DNA from: Bacteroidetes bacterium RIFCSPLOWO2_12_FULL_35_15
GTDB taxonomy: Bacteria > Bacteroidota > Bacteroidia > 2-12-FULL-35-15
Length of the DNA: 35,373 nucleotides
NCBI GenBank assembly: GCA_001769385.1
Contig: MEPB01000042.1
Span: forward strand, 1-35,373
Reading direction: 5' to 3'
Every line of letters begins with the position of its first letter. The stretch's first letter is position 1. The notes beneath the pieces are model-generated. The model was not told the DNA's origin. It worked only from the letters and a program-made list of their open reading frames with translations, and searched no databases. Both the position numbers and the translations under genes were made by a program. Below are positions 4,409 to 24,702 of the stretch, in pieces.

Positions 4409-7400
4409 ATGAAAATAAGATCACTCGTATTTTTTGTATTTATTTTTTTTGTGTCTCCGTCACTGACATTCAAATTAAATGCACAAGCAGTAGTCGCAAA
4501 TTTTTCTGCAAGTTCTACACAAGGATGTGCCCCGCTTAGTGTTAATTTTACTGATCTTTCAACGGGTTCGCCAACTGCCTGGGCCTGGAGCTTCGGAAAC
4601 GGAAATACTGCCGCAACTCAAAACCCTAGTGCTACCTACTTAACCCCCGGAACATACACTATAACCTTAACCGCTTCAAAACCTGGTTCTTCAAGTAATT
4701 TTTCAATTTCAATAACAGTATTTTCAAAACCTGTTGCAGATTTCACTAGCAATGTTACTACTACCACATGTATTGGCGACCTAGTAACATTTACCGATGC
4801 TTCAACTCCGGGAGGTGGAACATTAACAACCTGGAACTGGGATTTTGGCGATGGCTCAACTCAAATTACATCAAATGGAATTGGAACACACACATATTCA
4901 ACAGCAGGAACTTACCCGGTAAGTCTATTGCTTTTCGATAACAATGGATGTTCCGGAAGCATCATAAAAAATATAATTGTATTGCCGGCACCGGCAGCTG
5001 CTTTCTCCGGCTCTCCTTTACATTCCTGTATAGCACCCTTAACTGTTACGTTTACAAATTCATCAGCATTTACAGGAACTGTAACCTATATCTGGGATTT
5101 TGGTGATGGAGGCTCCTCCACACTGGTAAGTCCTGCACATACATACAATTCCACAGGAACATATACTGTTACATTAGTTATAGTTCAGGGAGCATGTACC
5201 GATACAATCGTTAAAAATAATTATGTCGTTATTGAAGATATGCTTGCTGATTTTTCTGTAAGCAATGATTCTATTTGTTTAGGGCAATCCGTTACTTTTA
5301 CTGATGTATCAACTCCTCTTTCTGTTTCCAGGACATGGGATTTTGGTGATGGTAGTACTTCTACAATAGCTAATCCATCTCATATTTATGCTGCTGCCGG
5401 CACATACACTGTTTCGTTACTGAATGCTACTGATCCTTTCTCCTGTTCTGATTCTGAAATAAAAGTTGGGTATATTACTGTATTTCCTATTGCTGTTGCA
5501 GCATTTACAGCAAATAACACAGCAGGTTGTGCTGTTCCTTTTACGGTTAATTTTACTGATAATTCTACAAATGCAACTACCTGGTCATGGAATTTTGGTG
5601 ATGGAGCAACTTCTCTTCTTCAAAATCCATCTCATGTATATACCTTACCGGGCACTTACACCGTGACTTTAATTGCATCAAATGCGAATGGTTGTTCGAA
5701 TACAATTATCAAAACAAATTATATTGTTATTTCTCTTCCTGTTGCAAACCTTACTGCAACGCCTCGTAACGGTTGTGTGCCCTTGACTGTGAATTTTACA
5801 AGTACAAGCACTTCCAGTATTGATCCAATTGCAAATTACAATTGGAATTTTGGCGATGGAACAATTATAAATACCGCAGTTTCTACAACATCTAATGTAT
5901 ATAATTTACCGGGTGTTTACACAGTTACTTTGATCATTACTACAACATCGGGTTGCTTGGATACGATTATTATGAACAATTATATTAGAACAGGAACTAC
6001 TCCAACTGCCAATTTTAGTGTAGTTGATAGAAATCTCTGTCATGGTGCAATGGCAACGTTTACGGATCTATCAGTCGGGGCCGACTCTGCTTATTGGAAA
6101 TTTGGCCTTCCTCCGGAACTTGCGGAAGGAACTTTTTCTACCCCTTCCGGTGCTGTGATGCCATACAATCCTGTAACATCCGTGTTTCCGGATACCGGCA
6201 CTTTTTCTGTAATGCAAATAGTTTATTACAATGGCTGTCCGGATACCCTTATTCTTAATGATACCATACGAATACTGCCTCCTAAGCCACTGTTTAATTA
6301 TAGATTGAACTGTTCAAATTATTATACCGTAACTTTTGCAGATACTTCATGGGGTGCAACTACCTGTGATTGGTATTTTGGCGATGGAAATAGTTTGCTG
6401 GCACAACCTCCATTAACTCCTTTTACACACACCTACTTAACAAGAGGAACATATACTGTTAATATGGTTGCACATAATTCAGTTGTAAATTGCCAGGATT
6501 CAATTACCCATACATTTACTATCGCTGAGCCACTTGCACAATTTACCACATTGCCTGTTAAAGGCTGTTATCCTTTACCCGTTTCCATCTCCAATACTTC
6601 GCAGGATGCAAGTGCTTTACTTTGGGATTTTGGCGATGGAACTGCTACTTCCAATTTAGTGAATCCTCCTGTTCATACATTTGCATTACCTGCAACCGAT
6701 ACGGTAGTGCTTATAATTACTGATGTGAATGGCTGTAAGGATACAACAACACAGCAAGTTGTTGTGCAAGGTCCTGTTCCATTATTTACTGCCGATACCT
6801 TAACAGGTTGTACTCCCTTACTTGTCACCTTTGCTGACACATCGATCTCGGATTCAACACTTACTAATTGGACATGGAATTTTGGTGATGGAACGGCTGT
6901 TCAAAATACAAACAATGATACCATCTCTCATACTTATTTTACACCGGGTTTATATACGGTAACAATGACTGTTACTGATATAAACTTATGTACAAAAACA
7001 ATAGTTAAAACAAATTATATTCAACCAACCTTCCCTTCTCCTTCATTTACGCTTGACACCTTTGCCTGCAGAGGAGATCTGCTTACTTTCAATGCTACTG
7101 CAACCAGTGCAGTCGGGCCGGGAGTAATTTATTCCTGGAACTTTGGTGATGGAACTAATGGTAATGGATTGATAGTTACGCATTCCTATGCACTTGATAA
7201 TTTATATGCTGTTACACTTACTGTTACTGATAAAAATGGTTGCGATTCTTCTTTAACGCAAACAGTTTTAATTCAAAAACCAGTAGCCGGATTTAAGGAT
7301 ACTGTTCTTTTGGAAGGTTGCGGTTTTGCGAATATACAATTTACGGATACTTCTGCTGGAACATCCATAAATTCATGGCAATGGAATTTTGGCGATGGAG

Positions 7401-8323
7401 GTTCTTCCACCTCACCTGATCCAACCCATACCTATACTGTTCCGGGAATGTACACGGTTAGCCTGATCGTAACAAATGCCGGTGGTTGTATTGATACCGT
7501 TTCTTTGGATAGTATCGTTATTGTTCCGGGTCCTTTTGGAACATTCTCATTTACACCAAATAGCGGTTGCCGGCCTCTTGAAGTTACCTTCACATCCTTC
7601 AGTGATAATTCAACAAGTTACATTTGGGATTTTGGTGATGGAACTGTTGTACCAACAACCGATACCACTATTACTCATATTTATACAAATGATATTGTGG
7701 CAACTCCAATTTTGCTGATGAGCAATACCCTTTCTGATAGCAGTACGTGCCAGCTGGCTGCTCCATCGGCAGGACAAATAAATGTATCTACTCTTATCAA
7801 TGTAACTATTGATTCTTCGGTTGTTACCCTTGATCAGGATGAAGCATTTACCATATTATCTACAGTTGGAAATGTAACAGGTGTTGCTGTTTATTCCTGG
7901 TCACCGGCAGATGGGTTGAGTTGCACAACTTGTCAAACGCCTATCATTGTTGGAAATGGAAGCGGACAAACTGTTACCTATACTTTAACTGTAACCGATC
8001 CTACTTCCGGATCTTGTATTGGTGATGATATAATAAATATTATTTTCACGGTCTGCGAAAACGACATTTCAATTCCAAATGTATTTACACCCAATGGGGA
8101 TGAAATAAATGATTATTTTGATATCAAAGGAACTTGCGAAAGCGATAGTTATTTATTCCGGATTTATGATAGATGGGGAATAAAAGTGTTTACGTCTGAA
8201 TTTGGAAAACTTTCCTGGGATGGCCGCACAACAAGTGGAATGGAAGCTGTAGAAGGAGTTTATTATTATGTACTTCAGATGAATGATAAATTCCTTACAG
8301 GATTTCTTCAGTTGATCAGATAG
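4409..8323 (+). CDS. Giant PKD-repeat surface protein with CHU_C type IX sorting domain
   Basis: This is a 1304-residue secreted protein. The signal peptide runs to about residue 26 (LNAQA). Tandem PKD (immunoglobulin-like) domains of roughly 80-95 residues follow, each marked by a W-x-F-G-D-G core. I count twelve clear copies plus a degenerate one near residue 560 reading YWKFGLPPE, which has lost the GDG turn. The last ~90 residues, starting IPNVFTPNGDEINDYF, are the gliding-motility-associated C-terminal (CHU_C) domain, the signal for export and surface attachment by the type IX secretion system. The likely role is adhesion or an extended surface or extracellular-matrix fibre; no catalytic domain is visible. 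Most repeats start with a Cys in GC.P and have a second Cys in a GC.DT motif, so each may carry its own disulfide. The gene stands alone between two non-coding repeat regions. Confidence 0.9.
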   Translation: MKIRSLVFFVFIFFVSPSLTFKLNAQAVVANFSASSTQGCAPLSVNFTDLSTGSPTAWAWSFGNGNTAATQNPSATYLTPGTYTITLTASKPGSSSNFSISITVFSKPVADFTSNVTTTTCIGDLVTFTDASTPGGGTLTTWNWDFGDGSTQITSNGIGTHTYSTAGTYPVSLLLFDNNGCSGSIIKNIIVLPAPAAAFSGSPLHSCIAPLTVTFTNSSAFTGTVTYIWDFGDGGSSTLVSPAHTYNSTGTYTVTLVIVQGACTDTIVKNNYVVIEDMLADFSVSNDSICLGQSVTFTDVSTPLSVSRTWDFGDGSTSTIANPSHIYAAAGTYTVSLLNATDPFSCSDSEIKVGYITVFPIAVAAFTANNTAGCAVPFTVNFTDNSTNATTWSWNFGDGATSLLQNPSHVYTLPGTYTVTLIASNANGCSNTIIKTNYIVISLPVANLTATPRNGCVPLTVNFTSTSTSSIDPIANYNWNFGDGTIINTAVSTTSNVYNLPGVYTVTLIITTTSGCLDTIIMNNYIRTGTTPTANFSVVDRNLCHGAMATFTDLSVGADSAYWKFGLPPELAEGTFSTPSGAVMPYNPVTSVFPDTGTFSVMQIVYYNGCPDTLILNDTIRILPPKPLFNYRLNCSNYYTVTFADTSWGATTCDWYFGDGNSLLAQPPLTPFTHTYLTRGTYTVNMVAHNSVVNCQDSITHTFTIAEPLAQFTTLPVKGCYPLPVSISNTSQDASALLWDFGDGTATSNLVNPPVHTFALPATDTVVLIITDVNGCKDTTTQQVVVQGPVPLFTADTLTGCTPLLVTFADTSISDSTLTNWTWNFGDGTAVQNTNNDTISHTYFTPGLYTVTMTVTDINLCTKTIVKTNYIQPTFPSPSFTLDTFACRGDLLTFNATATSAVGPGVIYSWNFGDGTNGNGLIVTHSYALDNLYAVTLTVTDKNGCDSSLTQTVLIQKPVAGFKDTVLLEGCGFANIQFTDTSAGTSINSWQWNFGDGGSSTSPDPTHTYTVPGMYTVSLIVTNAGGCIDTVSLDSIVIVPGPFGTFSFTPNSGCRPLEVTFTSFSDNSTSYIWDFGDGTVVPTTDTTITHIYTNDIVATPILLMSNTLSDSSTCQLAAPSAGQINVSTLINVTIDSSVVTLDQDEAFTILSTVGNVTGVAVYSWSPADGLSCTTCQTPIIVGNGSGQTVTYTLTVTDPTSGSCIGDDIINIIFTVCENDISIPNVFTPNGDEINDYFDIKGTCESDSYLFRIYDRWGIKVFTSEFGKLSWDGRTTSGMEAVEGVYYYVLQMNDKFLTGFLQLIR

Positions 8324-8788
8324 TTACGGTTCACTCAAAAAGTTGCGCTCCGCATTTGTTGGAATCAATGATGCTTAATTTAAAAAAATGCTTGTTAGTT
8401 TGATGTGTGCGAGCTTTGAGCAAACGCGATGTCGAGAAGCAGTGAACTCGGTTTTTATTGAAGGTCTTGGTGCGAGCTTTAGCCGCGCACTTAGACATTC
8501 AAAAAAATGGAGAGAGGAGCGGAGGAATCGTTTGCTCTTGAATTTTTGTTTCCTTTTTGTTCAAGCAAAAAGAAAAAGAGGTGCAAAGAAAATAAGGATT
8601 TTGTGTTTAAGCATTTGCACCAGACACAATTAGAATTCTTTGAAAGCATCTACAATTTTTGTTTTCTTGGGGGTTAAGTGAACCATAATTAAAGCAAAGT
8701 CAAATATAAGACAGACCAATGAATTTTTGCTTTTCAAGGAGAGGGTTTGGCTGAGGTCTTTAAAAAACTGTTTAAAATTTGAATGTTT
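8324..8788. repeat. 465-base gap made of dispersed repeat elements
   Basis: No convincing gene lies here. A frame at 8388-8633 exists, but its peptide (rich in K, R, C and F) looks like a translated repeat. 8406-8491 contains GTGCGAGCTTT twice (8406 and 8471). 8527-8686 is the second copy of the element seen at the window start (hairpin, GGTGCAAAGAAA, ..., GTGAACC). 8734-8775 (AAGGAGAGGG, then TGAGGTC, then AAAAACTGTTT) matches part of the element at 16912-16963. The region is convergent between the PKD gene and the TonB-dependent receptor gene, so it also has to end both transcripts, but I see no canonical terminator. Confidence 0.6.
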
Positions 8789-16746: not shown

Positions 16747-17172
16747 TGCTCCTGTTTAATCAATAGAATTCCTCGAAGCTTTGATGGTGTAAAGTGTTTG
16801 CCGCAGATTTGCAGATTATGTTTTTGTATTTGAAATTACATTATACAATTACCGAATGTATTTTGATCCAAATACAATACCATTAGCTTATATAAAATAT
16901 ACCAATTATTTCCCTCTCTTTCGGAGAGGGACTAAGGGTGAGGTCAGAAAAAAAAACTGTTTTATATAAGCTATTGATATTACCACATAGGAACATAGAT
17001 TTTAACGCTCTTATGACAAATATCATAAAAATAAATGCGCATAAAAGTTGTTGATAATCAGTCGATTAAATCATTTTCGTTATTTTGAGTAATTCTAAAT
17101 AGGTTTGATGACATTTTCATGACATTAACCTCCTAATAACATAGGAAATTTGAGGAAAGAAAAATAAAAGTT
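16747..17172. other. Gap before hemA: repeat element plus promoter region
   Basis: No gene is seen. 16877-16980 is an inverted-repeat element (separate entry). 16983-17008 (CCACATAGGAACATAGATTT and AACGCTCTTA) looks like a fragment related both to the polA-upstream element and, on the opposite strand, to TAAGAGCGTT in the hemA-hemC gap. TAGGTTTG at 17100-17107 fits the -7 consensus for hemA with a 66-base leader. Confidence 0.5.
16877..16980. repeat. Inverted-repeat element with central CCCTCTC/GAGAGGG hairpin
   Basis: The terminal repeat TAGCTTATATAAAA (16884-16897) is exactly reverse-complementary to 16960-16973, and the similarity continues outward imperfectly. In the middle CCCTCTC (16912-16918) pairs with GAGAGGG (16924-16930), followed by ACTAAGGGTGAGGTC. 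The central part is the family that also occurs at 8734-8775 and, in coding DNA, inside polA at 22681-22714. It resembles a miniature inverted-repeat element; no transposase is in the window. Confidence 0.75.
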
Positions 17173-18411: not shown

Positions 18412-18432
18412 AGCCCGAAAGGGCTTTTATTT
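18412..18432 (+). terminator. Short terminator after hemA
   Basis: AGCCC (18412-18416) pairs with GGGCT (18421-18425) around a GAAA tetraloop, and TTTATTTTAT follows. It begins seven bases after the hemA stop codon, and part of it is duplicated in the adjoining tandem repeat. Confidence 0.7.
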
Positions 18433-18726
18433 TATAAATAAAAAAATTGGAACGCAGATTTATTAAGAGCGTTAAGATTAAAAAATGATAAAATAAATTT
18501 ATATTACATTGAATCATAAATCACGCGTTACAAAAAAAATCTAATTTTATCTTAATAATCATAAAGAAGGACTTTTGTTTTATAAATAAAAAAGTTGGAA
18601 CACAGATTTAGCAAGATCGTTATGATTTAAAATAATAAATTAAATTTGCGTTACATAAAATCATAAATCACCCAGTACAATCATAAAATCTTAGTTTATC
18701 ATAATAATCATAAAGATCCGCGTTCC
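18422..18726. repeat. Tandem ~147-base repeat between hemA and hemC-hemD
   Basis: Two diverged units lie head to tail: 18422-18568 and 18569-18716. Both open with TTTTATAAATAAAAAA and contain TTGGAAC.CAGATTTA, then AATCATAAATCAC, then AATAATCATAAAGA. The left boundary GGAACGCAGAT (18449-18459) is complementary, with one mismatch, to ATCCGCGTTCC at 18716-18726, so the pair together is closed by an inverted repeat. The single copy after hemC-hemD (20344-20468) has the same ends. The remaining bases to 18749 hold no other feature than a possible promoter. No gene is present in this 344-base gap. Confidence 0.75.
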
Positions 18727-18749
18727 CATATTTGGAATGACATAAACAA

Positions 18750-20333
18750 ATGGAGAGAAAAATAATCATAGGAAGCAGAGGAAGCGATCTTGCTTTATGG
18801 CAAGCAAATCATATTTTACGTAAGGTTCAGAAACTTGGACTAACAGCAGAATTAAAAATTATCACCACACAAGGTGATGCCATTCAGGATCTCAGTTTTG
18901 ATAAACTCGAAGGAAAAGGTTTCTTTACCAAGGAAATTGAAGATGCCTTATTAAAAAAAGAAATTGATCTTGCGGTTCATTCACACAAGGATCTGCCAAC
19001 CACATCACCTGAAGGATTAAAGATAGCAGCTGTTTCGGAGCGGGAAGATGCTGCTGAACTTGTTTTGATCCTTAAAGAAAGTGTGGACAATGGTCAAAAA
19101 TTTGCATTCAAAAAAAATGCAATTGTTGGTACATCCTCTGCGCGCAGAAAATCACAATTACTGGCTTTTCGTAATGATATAAAAATTGAAGACTTACGCG
19201 GAAATGTTCCTACACGAATTCAAAAATTGCGGGATAAAAAATACGATGCCATCATGTTGGCTGCTGCAGGTGTAGAACGGTTGCATATTGATCTGAGCGA
19301 ATTTAAGGTTCTGCGATTGGATCCAAAAGAATTTATTCCTGCCCCCGCACAAGGTGTTTTAGGTTTGCAGATTAGGGAGGATGATCATGAATTATTTGAA
19401 TACATCAATAAATTAAATTCCGAAAAAGTAGAAGATATTATTGGTGTGGAACGTAAGGTCTTGAATTTATTTGATGGTGGCTGTCAATTACCATTAGGTG
19501 TTTATTGCATAAAAGAAGATAATAAATTTAAAGTGTGGACATCAAAAGCCGATGCCTGGAATACAATGCCAAAACGTTTGTATTTCGAGTCGTTTACCGA
19601 TGAAGGATTGGCAGAAAAAATTGTAAATGCCTTAAACACTATAAAAGGAAAATCTGTTTTAATAACCCGTGACCTGAAAGAGGACTCCTTCTTTAAAAAA
19701 GTGCTGGAAGGTAACGGATACAAGGTACAAGGTGTTTCGTTCATCGAAACAAAAAAAGTAAACATTTCCAGCATACCACATACTGATTGGATATTTTTTG
19801 CAAGCTCCAATGCAGTGGAACATTTCTTCGGACAGAATCCCGAATTAAAACCAAAAACAAAATTTGGGGCAATTGGAAAATCAACGGAACTGGAATTAAA
19901 AAAACACAACCGGAATGCTGCATTCGTTGGTTCTATCAATGATACAAAAGTGGTCGGAAAAAAATTCGCAAAAGCTGTTGGAGAAGAAACTGTTTTATTT
20001 CCCCAGGCAAAAGGTGGATTACGAACCGTTCAACAGCAGTTTACTGATGACGCGAAATTAATTGATCTGGTTGTTTACGAAACAGTAAAAAAAGAAAATA
20101 CAAAACTACCGGAAGTTGAAATACTCGTATTTACAAGCCCATCAAACGTGGTTTCTTATTTTGCCCAAAGGGCTCCTAACGGAGAAAAAGGAAAAATTAC
20201 TGCTGATCAAAAAGTAATAGCAATCGGTAAATCAACAGAAAAAAAATTGAAAGAGTTAGGAGTAGAAAACTGTTTGCTACCTGCTTCATTTGATGAAGTA
20301 GGATTAGCGGAAGCGGTTTTCGGAATTAGCTAA
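18750..20333 (+). CDS. hemC-hemD: Fused porphobilinogen deaminase / uroporphyrinogen-III synthase
   Basis: One uninterrupted 527-residue frame carries two consecutive heme enzymes. Residues 1-~290 are HemC: IIIGSRGSDLALWQA at the N-terminus, VHSHKDLPT (76-84), GTSSARRKSQL (127-137), LRGNVPTRIQKL (149-160), and the dipyrromethane-cofactor Cys245 in DGGCQLPLG. Residues ~300-527 are HemD: KSVLITRD at the start, the IFFASSNAVEHF segment near residue 350, and IAIGKSTEKKLKELG near the end, matching the conserved IGxxTxxxLxxxG pattern. HemC makes the linear hydroxymethylbilane, which HemD cyclises before it can close spontaneously to the wrong isomer, so fusion would help channelling. No internal start with good spacing separates the halves. 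Similar fusions are known in some bacteria; in most Bacteroidota I recall the two as separate genes. Related repeats lie on both sides of the gene. Confidence 0.93.
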   Translation: MERKIIIGSRGSDLALWQANHILRKVQKLGLTAELKIITTQGDAIQDLSFDKLEGKGFFTKEIEDALLKKEIDLAVHSHKDLPTTSPEGLKIAAVSEREDAAELVLILKESVDNGQKFAFKKNAIVGTSSARRKSQLLAFRNDIKIEDLRGNVPTRIQKLRDKKYDAIMLAAAGVERLHIDLSEFKVLRLDPKEFIPAPAQGVLGLQIREDDHELFEYINKLNSEKVEDIIGVERKVLNLFDGGCQLPLGVYCIKEDNKFKVWTSKADAWNTMPKRLYFESFTDEGLAEKIVNALNTIKGKSVLITRDLKEDSFFKKVLEGNGYKVQGVSFIETKKVNISSIPHTDWIFFASSNAVEHFFGQNPELKPKTKFGAIGKSTELELKKHNRNAAFVGSINDTKVVGKKFAKAVGEETVLFPQAKGGLRTVQQQFTDDAKLIDLVVYETVKKENTKLPEVEILVFTSPSNVVSYFAQRAPNGEKGKITADQKVIAIGKSTEKKLKELGVENCLLPASFDEVGLAEAVFGIS

Positions 20334-20343
20334 TGAAAAGGTG

Positions 20344-20468
20344 GGAACGCAGATTAGTTAGGATTTTTAAGATTAAAAATGATTAAATAGTTTTTTTTTA
20401 ATCATAAAACATCATAGTAAATAGTTAAAATCTTGTTTTATCATAACCATCATAAAAATCTGCGTTCC
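20344..20468. repeat. Inverted-repeat element between hemC-hemD and hemB
   Basis: GGAACGCAGATT (20344-20355) and AATCTGCGTTCC (20457-20468) are a perfect 12-base terminal inverted repeat around an AT-rich interior with TCATAAA motifs. The 125-base element starts 10 bases after the stop codon and ends 20 bases before hemB. It is related to the tandem units upstream of hemC-hemD. Confidence 0.8.
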
Positions 20469-20488
20469 AATAAAAAGTATAAAAATCA

Positions 20489-21801: not shown

Positions 21802-24702
21802 ATGTCCGAAACACCAAAAAAACTTTTTTTACTTGATGCCTTTGCATTAATTTATCGTGCTTATTTTGCCTTTGCTAACAATCATCGCATCAACTCAAAG
21901 GGCTTAAATACTTCTGCCATTCTGGGTTTTACAAACACTTTGTTGGAAGTTCTTAAAAAAGAAAAACCTTCGCATATCGCTGTTGTATTCGATACTTCTG
22001 AACCTACTGTTCGTCATATTGAGTTTGCCGAATACAAAGCACATCGGGAAGCAATGCCCGAAGATCTTTCTTTGTCCATCCCATATATCATAAAGGTGAT
22101 TGAAGGATTTAATATTCCAGTACTTTATTCAAATGGGTTTGAAGCGGATGATGTGATCGGAACTCTTGCGAAAAAAGCGGAAGCAAAAGGTTTTATCACC
22201 TATATGATGACGCCTGATAAGGATTACGGGCAATTAGTCTCTGATAAAATTTTTATTTACAAACCTGCCCGCATGGGAAATGGTGCAGAAATAATGGGGG
22301 TAAATGAAGTTTGTAAAAAATGGGATATAAAAAATGTAGATCAGTTAATTGATATTTTGGGTTTGATGGGCGATAAGGTGGATAATATTCCGGGTATTCC
22401 GGGAGTAGGCGAAAAAACAGCCATTCAGCTGGTCAAGGATTTTGGTACCATTGAAAATTTATTGCAAAATACCGATCAATTAAAAGGTAAATTAAAAGAG
22501 AAAGTGGAGCAAAATAAGGATAAGGCCATTCAATCAAAATGGTTGGCAACAATCATTTGTGATGTTCCAATTGAGCTGGATGAAAAAGCGTTGGAAATAG
22601 AAGAGCCCAACAGAGATGCATTGAAGGAATTGTTTCTGGAATTAGAATTCAGAAGATTAGCTGAGCAGATGGGAATGGCAAACCTCACCCCAACCCTCTC
22701 CGAAGGAGAGGGAGTTGTATTAGTTGAAAAAACAAAAGCACAAGCGAAAAAAATAAGCACAAATCCCAACCAAATAGACCTGTTTGGTGTTGAAGAAGAA
22801 ATTGCCGAACAAGATAGCCCCGACAACTCCCCTCTCCTTCTTTCAAGGAGCGAGGCCGGGGAAGGGGTTCTTTCGGAAACTAATAGAGCCACTATTTCAA
22901 CAACTCCACACACCTATTTCCTGATTGATACCAAAGAAAAACTTGAACAATTAATTTCAGATCTTAACAATCAATCTGTTTTTTGTTTTGACACTGAAAC
23001 AACCGGATTAGATGTTCAAACTGCTGAACTGGTTGGAATGTCTTTTGCATTCACCATTTCAGAAGCGTATTACATACCTGTTCCTGAAAATCAGGAAGAA
23101 GCACAACAACTGGTTAATGAATTCAAATTCGTTTTTGAAAATGAAAATAGTACCAAAATTGGACAAAATATTAAATATGATCTGTCGATTTTAAAGAGAT
23201 ATGGAATAGAAATAAAGGGAAAATTATTTGATACCATGGTGGCGCATTTCCTTATTCAGCCGGAGATGCGACATGGGATGAATGTGCTTGCCGAAACGTA
23301 TTTGAATTATTCTCCTGTTTCAATTGAAACATTGATCGGTAAAAAAGGCAAAGGGCAATTAAATATGCGTGCTGTTCCAATCGAAGAAATAAAAGAATAT
23401 GCAGCGGAAGATGCAGATATTACTCTTCAGCTTAAAAATGTATTTGAGCCATTGCTTATTGAAACACATACAAAAAAATTATTTGAGGAAATTGAAATTC
23501 CACTTATCCCTGTATTGGCTGATATGGAAGCCGAAGGTATTGCACTGGATAAAAATGCTTTGCAGGACTTAGCACTTGAATTAGAAAAAGATATTCTGGT
23601 GGTGGAAAATGAAATCCAAGCTATGGCAGGTACACCATTTAATGTTTCATCACCAAAACAAGTAGGAGATATTTTATTTGAAGTACTACGAATAGTTGAA
23701 AAACCAAAGAAGACAAAAACAGGACAGTATGCAACAGGCGAAGATGTATTGTCAAAATTAGTTGGCAAACATGCAATTGTTGGAAGAATATTGGACTATC
23801 GCGAACTCGTAAAATTAAAAAATACCTACGTAGATACATTGCCATTATTGGTGAATCCACGTACAGGTAGAATTCATACTTCATATAATCAGGTGGTGGC
23901 GGTTACCGGCAGATTGAGTTCTGATAATCCTAATTTGCAGAACATTCCTATTCGGACCGAGCGTGGAAGAGAAATTCGAAAAGCATTTGTTGCGCGAAAC
24001 GAAAATTACATGTTGCTTTCTGCCGATTACTCCCAGATTGAATTACGGATAATAGCCGAATTAAGTAAAGATGAAGGAATGATCGAAGCATTTCAAACGG
24101 GATTAGATATTCACAAAGCCACAGCAGCAAAGGTTTATAACGTTCCCTTAGAAGAAGTAACATCTGACATGCGAAGAAATGCGAAAATGGTAAACTTCGG
24201 GATCATCTATGGAATATCAGCTTTCGGACTTTCTGAGCGATTGAACATTCCACGTAAAGAAGCAGCGGCTATCATCGAAAATTATTTTGAAAAATATCCA
24301 CGTATAAAAGCATATATGGATGAAAGTATTGAAATTGCCCGTGAAAAAGGATATGTAGAAACGATTATGGGACGCAGAAGATACTTACGTGATATCAATT
24401 CTAACAATCATACTATTCGAAGTTTCGCAGAACGTAACGCTATTAATTCCCCCATACAGGGAAGTGCAGCCGACATGCTTAAAATTGCAATGATACAAAT
24501 TCATCAGGACCTGAAATCAAAAAAATTGAAATCAAAAATGTTGTTGCAGGTGCATGACGAATTAGTTTTTGATGTGTTGAAAGAAGAGTTGGAAGAAGTA
24601 AAAATTATTGTAGAAAGCAGAATGAGAAATGCAATTTCAACATTAAGTGTACCGATGGAAGTTGGAATAGGAGTGGGACATAACTGGCTGGAAGCACATT
24701 AA
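21802..24702 (+). CDS. polA: DNA polymerase I with repeat-derived peptides in the interdomain linker
   Basis: From the ATG at 21802 the protein has 966 residues; a TTG ten codons upstream is less likely because MSETPKKLFLLDAFALIYRA is the family start. The 5'-3' exonuclease domain covers about 1-285 (EADDVIGTLAKKA, LMGDKVDNIPGIPGVGEKTA). The 3'-5' proofreading domain, about 375-570, keeps its metal residues: Asp397 and Glu399 in FDTETTG, and Tyr533 and Asp537 in EYAAEDAD. The polymerase domain has motif A Asp742 (SADYSQIELR), motif B RRNAKMVNFGIIYG (Lys795) and motif C QVHDE (Asp919). All three activities should work. The linker at about 294-370 holds two peptides encoded by palindromic repeats, NLTPTLSEGEGV (294 on) and NSPLLLSRSEAGEGVLSE (342-359), around a native-looking QIDLFGVEEE. 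The HAD phosphatase gene follows after 50 bases. Confidence 0.97.
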   Translation: MSETPKKLFLLDAFALIYRAYFAFANNHRINSKGLNTSAILGFTNTLLEVLKKEKPSHIAVVFDTSEPTVRHIEFAEYKAHREAMPEDLSLSIPYIIKVIEGFNIPVLYSNGFEADDVIGTLAKKAEAKGFITYMMTPDKDYGQLVSDKIFIYKPARMGNGAEIMGVNEVCKKWDIKNVDQLIDILGLMGDKVDNIPGIPGVGEKTAIQLVKDFGTIENLLQNTDQLKGKLKEKVEQNKDKAIQSKWLATIICDVPIELDEKALEIEEPNRDALKELFLELEFRRLAEQMGMANLTPTLSEGEGVVLVEKTKAQAKKISTNPNQIDLFGVEEEIAEQDSPDNSPLLLSRSEAGEGVLSETNRATISTTPHTYFLIDTKEKLEQLISDLNNQSVFCFDTETTGLDVQTAELVGMSFAFTISEAYYIPVPENQEEAQQLVNEFKFVFENENSTKIGQNIKYDLSILKRYGIEIKGKLFDTMVAHFLIQPEMRHGMNVLAETYLNYSPVSIETLIGKKGKGQLNMRAVPIEEIKEYAAEDADITLQLKNVFEPLLIETHTKKLFEEIEIPLIPVLADMEAEGIALDKNALQDLALELEKDILVVENEIQAMAGTPFNVSSPKQVGDILFEVLRIVEKPKKTKTGQYATGEDVLSKLVGKHAIVGRILDYRELVKLKNTYVDTLPLLVNPRTGRIHTSYNQVVAVTGRLSSDNPNLQNIPIRTERGREIRKAFVARNENYMLLSADYSQIELRIIAELSKDEGMIEAFQTGLDIHKATAAKVYNVPLEEVTSDMRRNAKMVNFGIIYGISAFGLSERLNIPRKEAAAIIENYFEKYPRIKAYMDESIEIAREKGYVETIMGRRRYLRDINSNNHTIRSFAERNAINSPIQGSAADMLKIAMIQIHQDLKSKKLKSKMLLQVHDELVFDVLKEELEEVKIIVESRMRNAISTLSVPMEVGIGVGHNWLEAH
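22681..22714 (-). repeat. Palindromic repeat inside polA (first copy)
   Basis: CCCTCTCC (22694-22701) pairs perfectly with GGAGAGGG (22705-22712) around GAA, preceded by CCTCACCCCAA. On the minus strand this reads as the GAGAGGG...GGTGAGG family seen in non-coding DNA at 16912-16944 and 8736-8757. It keeps the polA frame and encodes NLTPTLSEGEG. Confidence 0.85.
22826..22874 (+). repeat. Palindromic repeat inside polA (second copy, related type)
   Basis: CCCCTCTCCTTCTTTCAAGG, then AGCGAGG, CCGGGG and AAGGGGTT: CTCCTT pairs with AAGGAG around CTTTC, and the outer C-runs can pair with the following G-runs. It is GC-rich against AT-rich surroundings and keeps the frame, encoding NSPLLLSRSEAGEGVL. 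It lies 111 bases after the end of the first copy. Confidence 0.75.

Follow-up and report, generated by a model that had tools for sequence, protein, structure and literature searches.

The gene for DNA polymerase I (polA) of Bacteroidetes bacterium RIFCSPLOWO2_12_FULL_35_15 contains two short palindromic repeats of one family, both read in frame within the linker between its exonuclease domains. These inserts are probably solo copies of a selfish palindromic repeat that also forms the ends of small cassettes carrying a DUF559 nuclease gene, and would be passengers in a linker that tolerates them. The gene lies on contig MEPB01000042.1 of assembly GCA_001769385.1, which was analyzed over its full 35,373 nucleotides (nt; "the window") and is contig C42 of a 5.39-Mb, 110-contig genome labeled G000 (G, C and L numbers denote genomes, contigs and loci). 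An earlier note made from the letters of the window had described the two repeats; it had missed both that the phenomenon is genus-wide and affects many conserved genes, and that copies of the repeat bracket a nuclease cassette.

Two in-frame palindromic repeats in the polA linker

The core of the repeat, about 33-45 nt long, reads CCCTCTCC-loop-GGAGAGGG followed by a GGGGTGAGGT tail. It was modeled as R1, a covariance model of 34 positions and 9 base pairs built from 12 aligned short-loop copies outside polA. The relevant features of the window are as follows.

21802..24702, plus strand: polA (DNA polymerase I), with a likely ATG start (MSETPKK); the mechanical open reading frame begins at TTG 21772.
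22682..22714, minus strand: palindromic element copy 1, antisense to polA, with the in-frame reading NLTPTLSEGEG (R1 50.7 bits, E 3.8e-15).
22694..22712, no strand assigned: perfect 8-bp palindromic stem of copy 1, with a 3-nt loop.
22715..22824, plus strand: native linker between copies 1 and 2, with an NPNQIDLFG block common to relatives in the linker alignment.
22825..22869, plus strand: palindromic element copy 2, sense, with the in-frame reading NSPLLLSRSEAGEG (degenerate right arm and tail; local score 50).
16910..16944, plus strand: non-coding copy of the element, enclosed by longer inverted arms that are rich in A and T (judged by eye, about 16884-16898 and 16960-16974; R1 51.8 bits, one of the 12 training copies).
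8727..8757, plus strand: degenerate non-coding copy (R1 9.3 bits, E 0.23).

The polA product is matched by NCBIfam PRK05755 (1133.8 bits) and TIGR00593 (973.5 bits) and by the Pfam domains 5_3_exonuc_N, 5_3_exonuc, DNA_pol_A_exo1 and DNA_pol_A. The NCBIfam and Pfam matches span its length, and the frame is open throughout, both inserts included. The polymerase and exonuclease motifs FDTETTG, NIKYDL, YAAEDAD, DYSQIE, NFGIIYG and QVHDEL were all read intact in the sequence. In an AlphaFold model of PolA, the sole run of at least three residues with a pLDDT below 50 spans residues 294-359 (numbered from MSET), and both inserts lie inside it.

Copy 1 (ACCTCACCCCAACCCTCTCCGAAGGAGAGGGAG) was recognized by R1, a model trained without polA, with 50.7 bits and an E value of 3.8e-15 in the window and 5.8e-13 in the whole genome, and none of 300 codon shuffles equaled its score. 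For copy 2, comparison with consensus forms that have a long loop gave the local score of 50, and 2000 codon shuffles of this segment did not exceed 30 (0/2000 as good); R1 gave it only 5.3 bits, owing to a long loop and a decayed right arm. The two copies are one family and form an inverted pair, with their GGTGAGG tails pointing outward and 110 nt of native linker between them, an arrangement that the earlier note had left unstated. The earlier note had taken both peptides for translated repeats, the first with the perfect 8-bp stem listed above, and both stretches do match the repeat family at the DNA level. It had also placed family members on the other strand at 16912 and 8736; the former holds as a high-scoring copy, and the latter proved to be only degenerate, with two mismatches to an 18-mer of copy 1 (shuffles average 0.01 matches).

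Spread of the repeat through the genus

A search of the whole genome, which the earlier note had proposed, yielded 92 R1 matches in G000 at E<=1e-3, a few copies being counted on each strand. Among the 36 genomes of the genus that were compared, matches ranged from 0 (G024 and G020) to at least 149 (G004), with one or more in 34 of the 36. R1 is insensitive to degenerate or long-loop copies and was scored on at most 150 candidates per genome, and the highest counts are probably lower bounds. The closest relative by PolA among the genomes compared (G024, 91% identity) is one of the two genomes with no R1 match, and both linker peptides are absent from it. In pattern searches run with a reversed-pattern control, the control gave 0 against 6 and 25 against 57; a third pattern count was not used, its reversed pattern being nearly the same sequence and the control nearly equal in many genomes.

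The genomic context of the repeat was examined in G000, where 101 matches, four of which dropped out, reduced to 93 distinct copies. For 14 of the 93, the surrounding frame stays open for 100 residues or more in both directions; the same holds for 623 of 3040 positions drawn at random from these loci, so the copies are not unusually frequent in genes. Seventy-eight of the 93 are not deep within a long frame, compared with 2417 of the 3040 random positions under the same rule. Longer complementary AT-rich arms (score >20) flank 37 of the 78 non-genic copies and none of the 14 that are deep in frame. Deep inside frames, the bare stop-free core is the form seen.

The host genes in G000 include metH (three copies), ileS, valS, leuS and gpmI, as well as genes for a copper P-type ATPase, rmlD-like, DUF58 and thioredoxin-like proteins and reverse transcriptases. 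A further copy lies close to the end of a D-Ala-D-Ala ligase-like gene. In three reverse transcriptase-like genes (G000 C43:3773, C95:2403 and C62:105; RVT_1 matched in the first two), the palindrome stands just before the YVDD motif. Two PorP/SprF genes (G000 C33:14237 and C5:29254; L226 and L246) carry the repeat where their frames begin, within the signal peptide or close to it, possibly because the start is misplaced.

Repeats in the polA linkers of relatives

Linkers were compared across 35 genomes of the genus, G018 having given no polA match. Relatives without the inserts, which the earlier note had suggested looking for, make up most of the set: the linker copy was equaled by none of 300 codon shuffles in six genomes (G000, G008, G015, G030, G004 and G021), was marginal in G005 (3/300 as good), and 28 of the 35 linkers have no significant element. 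All R1 matches inside polA at E<=1e-5 fall in the linker, at one of two sites, either right after the 5' nuclease domain (the N-site) or closer to the 3'-5' exonuclease. Matches in PolA outside the linker (L107, L124 and L181; 8.6-9.7 bits, E 2-5) were taken as chance. Outside the genus, the linker contains a strong copy in a metagenome-assembled genome of the Flavobacteriales (L119, 35.6 bits) and weak ones in two records of the Bacteroidales (L155 and L156; E about 0.1, about 14 bits). Genome-wide, the six carriers of a linker copy hold 63 to at least 149 matches, compared with 0-120 in the other 29, G005 included (p 3.5e-4, relatedness ignored).

In the PolA tree, which excludes linker L178 (G043) because its start had been set wrongly, carriers fall in several lineages, and the open forks leave no firm count of independent gains or losses; the outgroup linkers L171, L173, L176 and L177 were not found by pattern. 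The N-site copies of G000 and G030 are in different frames, by eye, from those of G008 and G021, and G030 and G008 are sisters (99/97), which favors at least two events. Between G000 and G030, the perfect 8-bp N-site stems show a change that affects both arms, and in several species decayed-looking relatives occupy the N-site. The loop of the N-site copy in G021 is extended by additional sequence, which gives the impression of a repeat inserted into a repeat.

The joint change of both arms and the decayed-looking relatives are also consistent with GC-rich palindromes that arise in place, where slippage or template switching would turn imperfect palindromes of a weakly constrained coding segment into perfect ones, with no mobile element involved. 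However, about 90 places in this genome match the full core together with its GGGGTGAGGT tail, and because such a tail would not be recreated in situ, we consider this origin scarcely credible.

The changes in both arms, together with the presence of the element in several lineages, could likewise point to inserts that are kept for a benefit to Pol I or its message, either as a longer or structured tether or as a hairpin in the mRNA at which ribosomes would slow down between the domains. Element-bearing linkers are also longer on average (117-130 residues, compared with 100-139 without it; p 0.016), but the longest linker in the genus has no element, so that the looser tethering of the 3'-5' domain raised in the earlier note would not be distinctive. 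The RNA hairpin of copy 1 folds at -14.6 kcal/mol (z -1.77), but the fold of copy 2 was no better than that of shuffles (z -0.39), the same repeats occur in many unrelated genes, and most linkers of the genus do without them. A retained benefit is thus very unlikely, and a special effect of the inserts on Pol I is not supported.

A second family A DNA polymerase-like gene was observed in two genomes (G000:C52:15752-17617 and G027:C61:100905-102701). It matches PolA only from about residue 364 or 389, with no 5'-3' exonuclease in the match.

DUF559 nuclease genes bracketed by the repeat

DUF559, which we take to be a Vsr-like, PD-(D/E)XK type nuclease-like protein, gave 67 matches in 31 of the 36 genomes, 20 of the 67 inside frames of at least 700 residues. 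It matches the solved "endonuclease-like protein" 3hrl (E 2.1e-20), and its core motif was found in 18 of the 19 cassette loci scanned, one of the 18 with glutamate for the final glycine, while L285 fails the pattern. R1 copies bracket DUF559 with tails outward at 18 of 30 loci (one per genome), compared with none of 29 loci of RAYT transposase genes (Fisher p 1.9e-7); one of the 18, L316, gave three of the R1 training copies, and without it the count is 17 of 29. Independently of the model, inverted repeats in the flanks exceeded the 95% control at 22 of 23 DUF559 loci of the genus, 16 of 23 in other Bacteroidia and 10 of 22 RAYT loci, with ten DUF559 and seven RAYT loci skipped as cut off. 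In addition, the five genomes without DUF559 hold 0, 2, 3, 7 and 19 copies of the repeat against a median of 44 elsewhere (p 0.0026), three of the five being less than 90% complete.

Several of these DUF559 domains are in frame inside conserved enzymes. In metH of G000 (contig C81, L316:1301-1855), three palindromes and an in-frame DUF559 lie in the activation domain, with the DUF559 domain flanked on both sides by repeat copies. Ten scanned frames had as hosts metH, leuS, acs, ileS and paaZ, with L333 lacking a named host. In the Bacteroidia, 65 of 119 genomes have DUF559, and among the matches listed at least 38 (four in the genus) are in frames of at least 700 residues, some of which may be real multidomain proteins.

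The solo repeat and the cassette are connected through leuS. After removal of 21 opposite-strand doubles from 49 rows, 27 of the 28 placed matches are inside the gene, in 13 of 30 genomes and at recurring sites. At site C, in the editing domain, 32 loci include four DUF559 cassettes, five clear solo repeats (among them G000, where the repeat is degenerate) and 15 plain loops of nine residues; solo and cassette forms thus share one site. The remaining loci were other, doubtful or not found, the G013 "solo" (motif GEA alone) not being counted as clear and the G015 site not being found.

Other repeats occur at these places as well. In leuS (loci L257-L286, sites B and C), one site has the palindrome in some species and a run of AAAGTTC units in G008, G025, G030, G032 and G035, and the site C loop of G016 apparently contains another repeat, CATCCTGAGCGGAGTCGAAGGA. 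Different repeat families seem to share landing sites.

Origin of the inserts

The reading we prefer is that the repeat family would have spread through this Bacteroidota genus with copies reaching many places, genic copies persisting only where the stop-free core reads in frame and the protein tolerates the insert. In PolA, the tolerant place would be the disordered stretch that links the 5'-3' exonuclease domain to the 3'-5' one. As a tails-out inverted pair, the repeat forms the two ends of small DUF559 cassettes, which are also found in frame within conserved enzymes; the nuclease may drive the spread by cutting, followed by copying through repair, and the solo copies may be remnants of cassettes that were internally deleted or mobilized in trans. 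The inserted peptides are most likely passengers, presumably neutral, with Pol I working normally. The pair in polA is itself tails-out, like the ends of the DUF559 cassettes, but it encloses native linker rather than DUF559. A deleted cassette spanning both polA copies was considered and ruled out, the intervening stretch being native linker with its NPNQxDLF block.

More tentatively, and short of being probable, the system as a whole may be a mobile element of a kind absent from the literature searched, a DUF559 (Vsr-like) nuclease cassette with REP-like (repetitive extragenic palindrome) ends, which would enter conserved enzymes in frame without splicing, leave its nuclease domain in the host protein, and seed solo palindromes, including those in polA and the tRNA synthetases. 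Within that scheme, solo copies at the cassette's own target site could protect the site from the nuclease.

A number of observations weigh against the preferred reading. In comparison with G024, about 33 nt were gained almost cleanly at copy 2, but the net gain at copy 1 is only about 9 nt, so that copy 1 is not a simple insertion into G024-like sequence; either the site was reshaped or a decayed remnant is present in G024. The proposal of two insertions at a hinge accordingly stands as to the place, a flexible inter-domain linker in the AlphaFold model, and not as to a clean insertion of copy 1. No target-site duplication was noticed by eye, including at leuS sites A-C, no systematic search having been made. 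Twelve of the 30 DUF559 loci are not bracketed tails-out (three one-sided, three in another orientation and six with none, some cut off at contig ends), the DUF559 gene on C87 of G000 has repeats with tails inward, and G024, which has no R1 match, has a DUF559 gene flanked by another palindrome. No DUF559 motif was found in PolA linkers among 109 frames scanned (some genomes twice), none of the PolA frames listed exceeds 1052 residues, and no PolA with a full cassette was found among them. Finally, the number of RAYT matches correlates with copy number across the 36 genomes (Spearman 0.55, p 5e-4), and that of DUF559 matches only at 0.34 (p 0.04).

This correlation, along with 11 matches to the Y1_Tnp family in G000, would fit palindromes that are ordinary REPs moved by host RAYT/Y1 tyrosine transposases, with DUF559 merely hitch-hiking in repeat-rich sites. 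The tail GGGGTGAG also fits the GGGGWSAS motif of TIRYT transposase terminal repeats reported by Di Nocera et al. 2013 (PMC3733652), and an R1 match at E<=1e-9 lies near a RAYT gene, without bracketing it, in three loci or stretches (L297, L290 and L182). However, the element brackets none of the 29 RAYT loci of the genus, the seven RAYT-free genomes hold 0-46 matches (46 in G011), and G029 has five RAYT matches and two copies. Because the RAYT loci carry inverted repeats of their own, different from this one (the 10 of 22 above control), we prefer solo copies of a DUF559-linked repeat and consider transposition by host RAYTs unlikely. One locus of G000 (L043, C61) has a Y1_Tnp-family gene surrounded by its own CGTCCTCGTTTGCAACGAGGACG palindromes, although in the species that PMC3733652 covers, CGTC repeats were not found on both sides of any tyrosine transposase gene.

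Relation to known elements

Palindromes read in frame within Pol I are a known kind of insert. PMC3733652 describes intragenic REPs of the GTAG and CGTC superfamilies, with DNA polymerase I among the REP-decorated proteins, argues for neutrality through flexible linkers and speculates on mutator effects; for recB it reports about the same site in two Xanthomonas species, and for other cases different sites. Like those in-frame palindromes of 20-40 nt in replication, repair and tRNA synthetase genes, the repeat described here is short and present in many copies (34 model positions, with the G000 matches counted above). It differs in its GGGGTGAGGT tail, no GTAG or CGTC end tag being found in the 12 aligned copies, whose tails are GGGGTGAGGT-like, and in being linked to DUF559 rather than RAYT genes; the present comparison also shows that sites are used repeatedly in different species.

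The Rickettsia palindromic elements (RPE-1 to RPE-7) and the Wolbachia palindromic elements are likewise palindromes that lie in frame in conserved genes (PMC3767692, PMC2229807). PMC3767692 lists RPEs in the genes ileS and DNA polymerase III alpha, describes how different repeat groups can occupy a single gene site in different species, and leaves open the hotspot status of such sites. In-frame copies in conserved genes are common to both cases, whereas RPEs are about 100-150 bp long and belong to the Rickettsiales, and the repeats here are about 33-45 nt and belong to the Bacteroidota.

The longer complementary arms around many non-genic copies of G000 resemble miniature inverted-repeat transposable elements, but the deep-in-frame copies lack such arms and, as stated above, inspection by eye revealed no target-site duplication. 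Homing endonuclease genes, among them the Vsr-like (EDxHD) type, are small nuclease genes that reside within a conserved gene at a recurrent site. The DUF559 gene inside conserved genes at a recurrent site resembles them in its placement, but the DUF559 domain seems to stay in the host protein, and no intron or intein was noticed, none having been looked for. No account of a link between DUF559 and the repeat was found in the literature searched, which was mostly without subscription papers, and an earlier description is possible.

A DUF559 gene bracketed by the repeat is a testable candidate, and in-frame nuclease domains in metH, leuS, acs, ileS and paaZ would represent a parasitism that relies on protein tolerance rather than on splicing. 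The recurrent sites map where essential enzymes tolerate inserts, and the inserts could mislead annotation and phylogeny.

Other features of the window

An inverted repeat with TCATTGCGAGGAACGAAGCA arms lies at 1695-1796 and resembles another intergenic repeat family. AT-rich direct repeats of the GGAACGCAGATT type occur at 18419-18730 and 20314-20472 and recur between genes. At 4409-8323, an open reading frame of 1304 residues contains at least ten repeats around W-[ND]-FGDG, which we take to be PKD-like.

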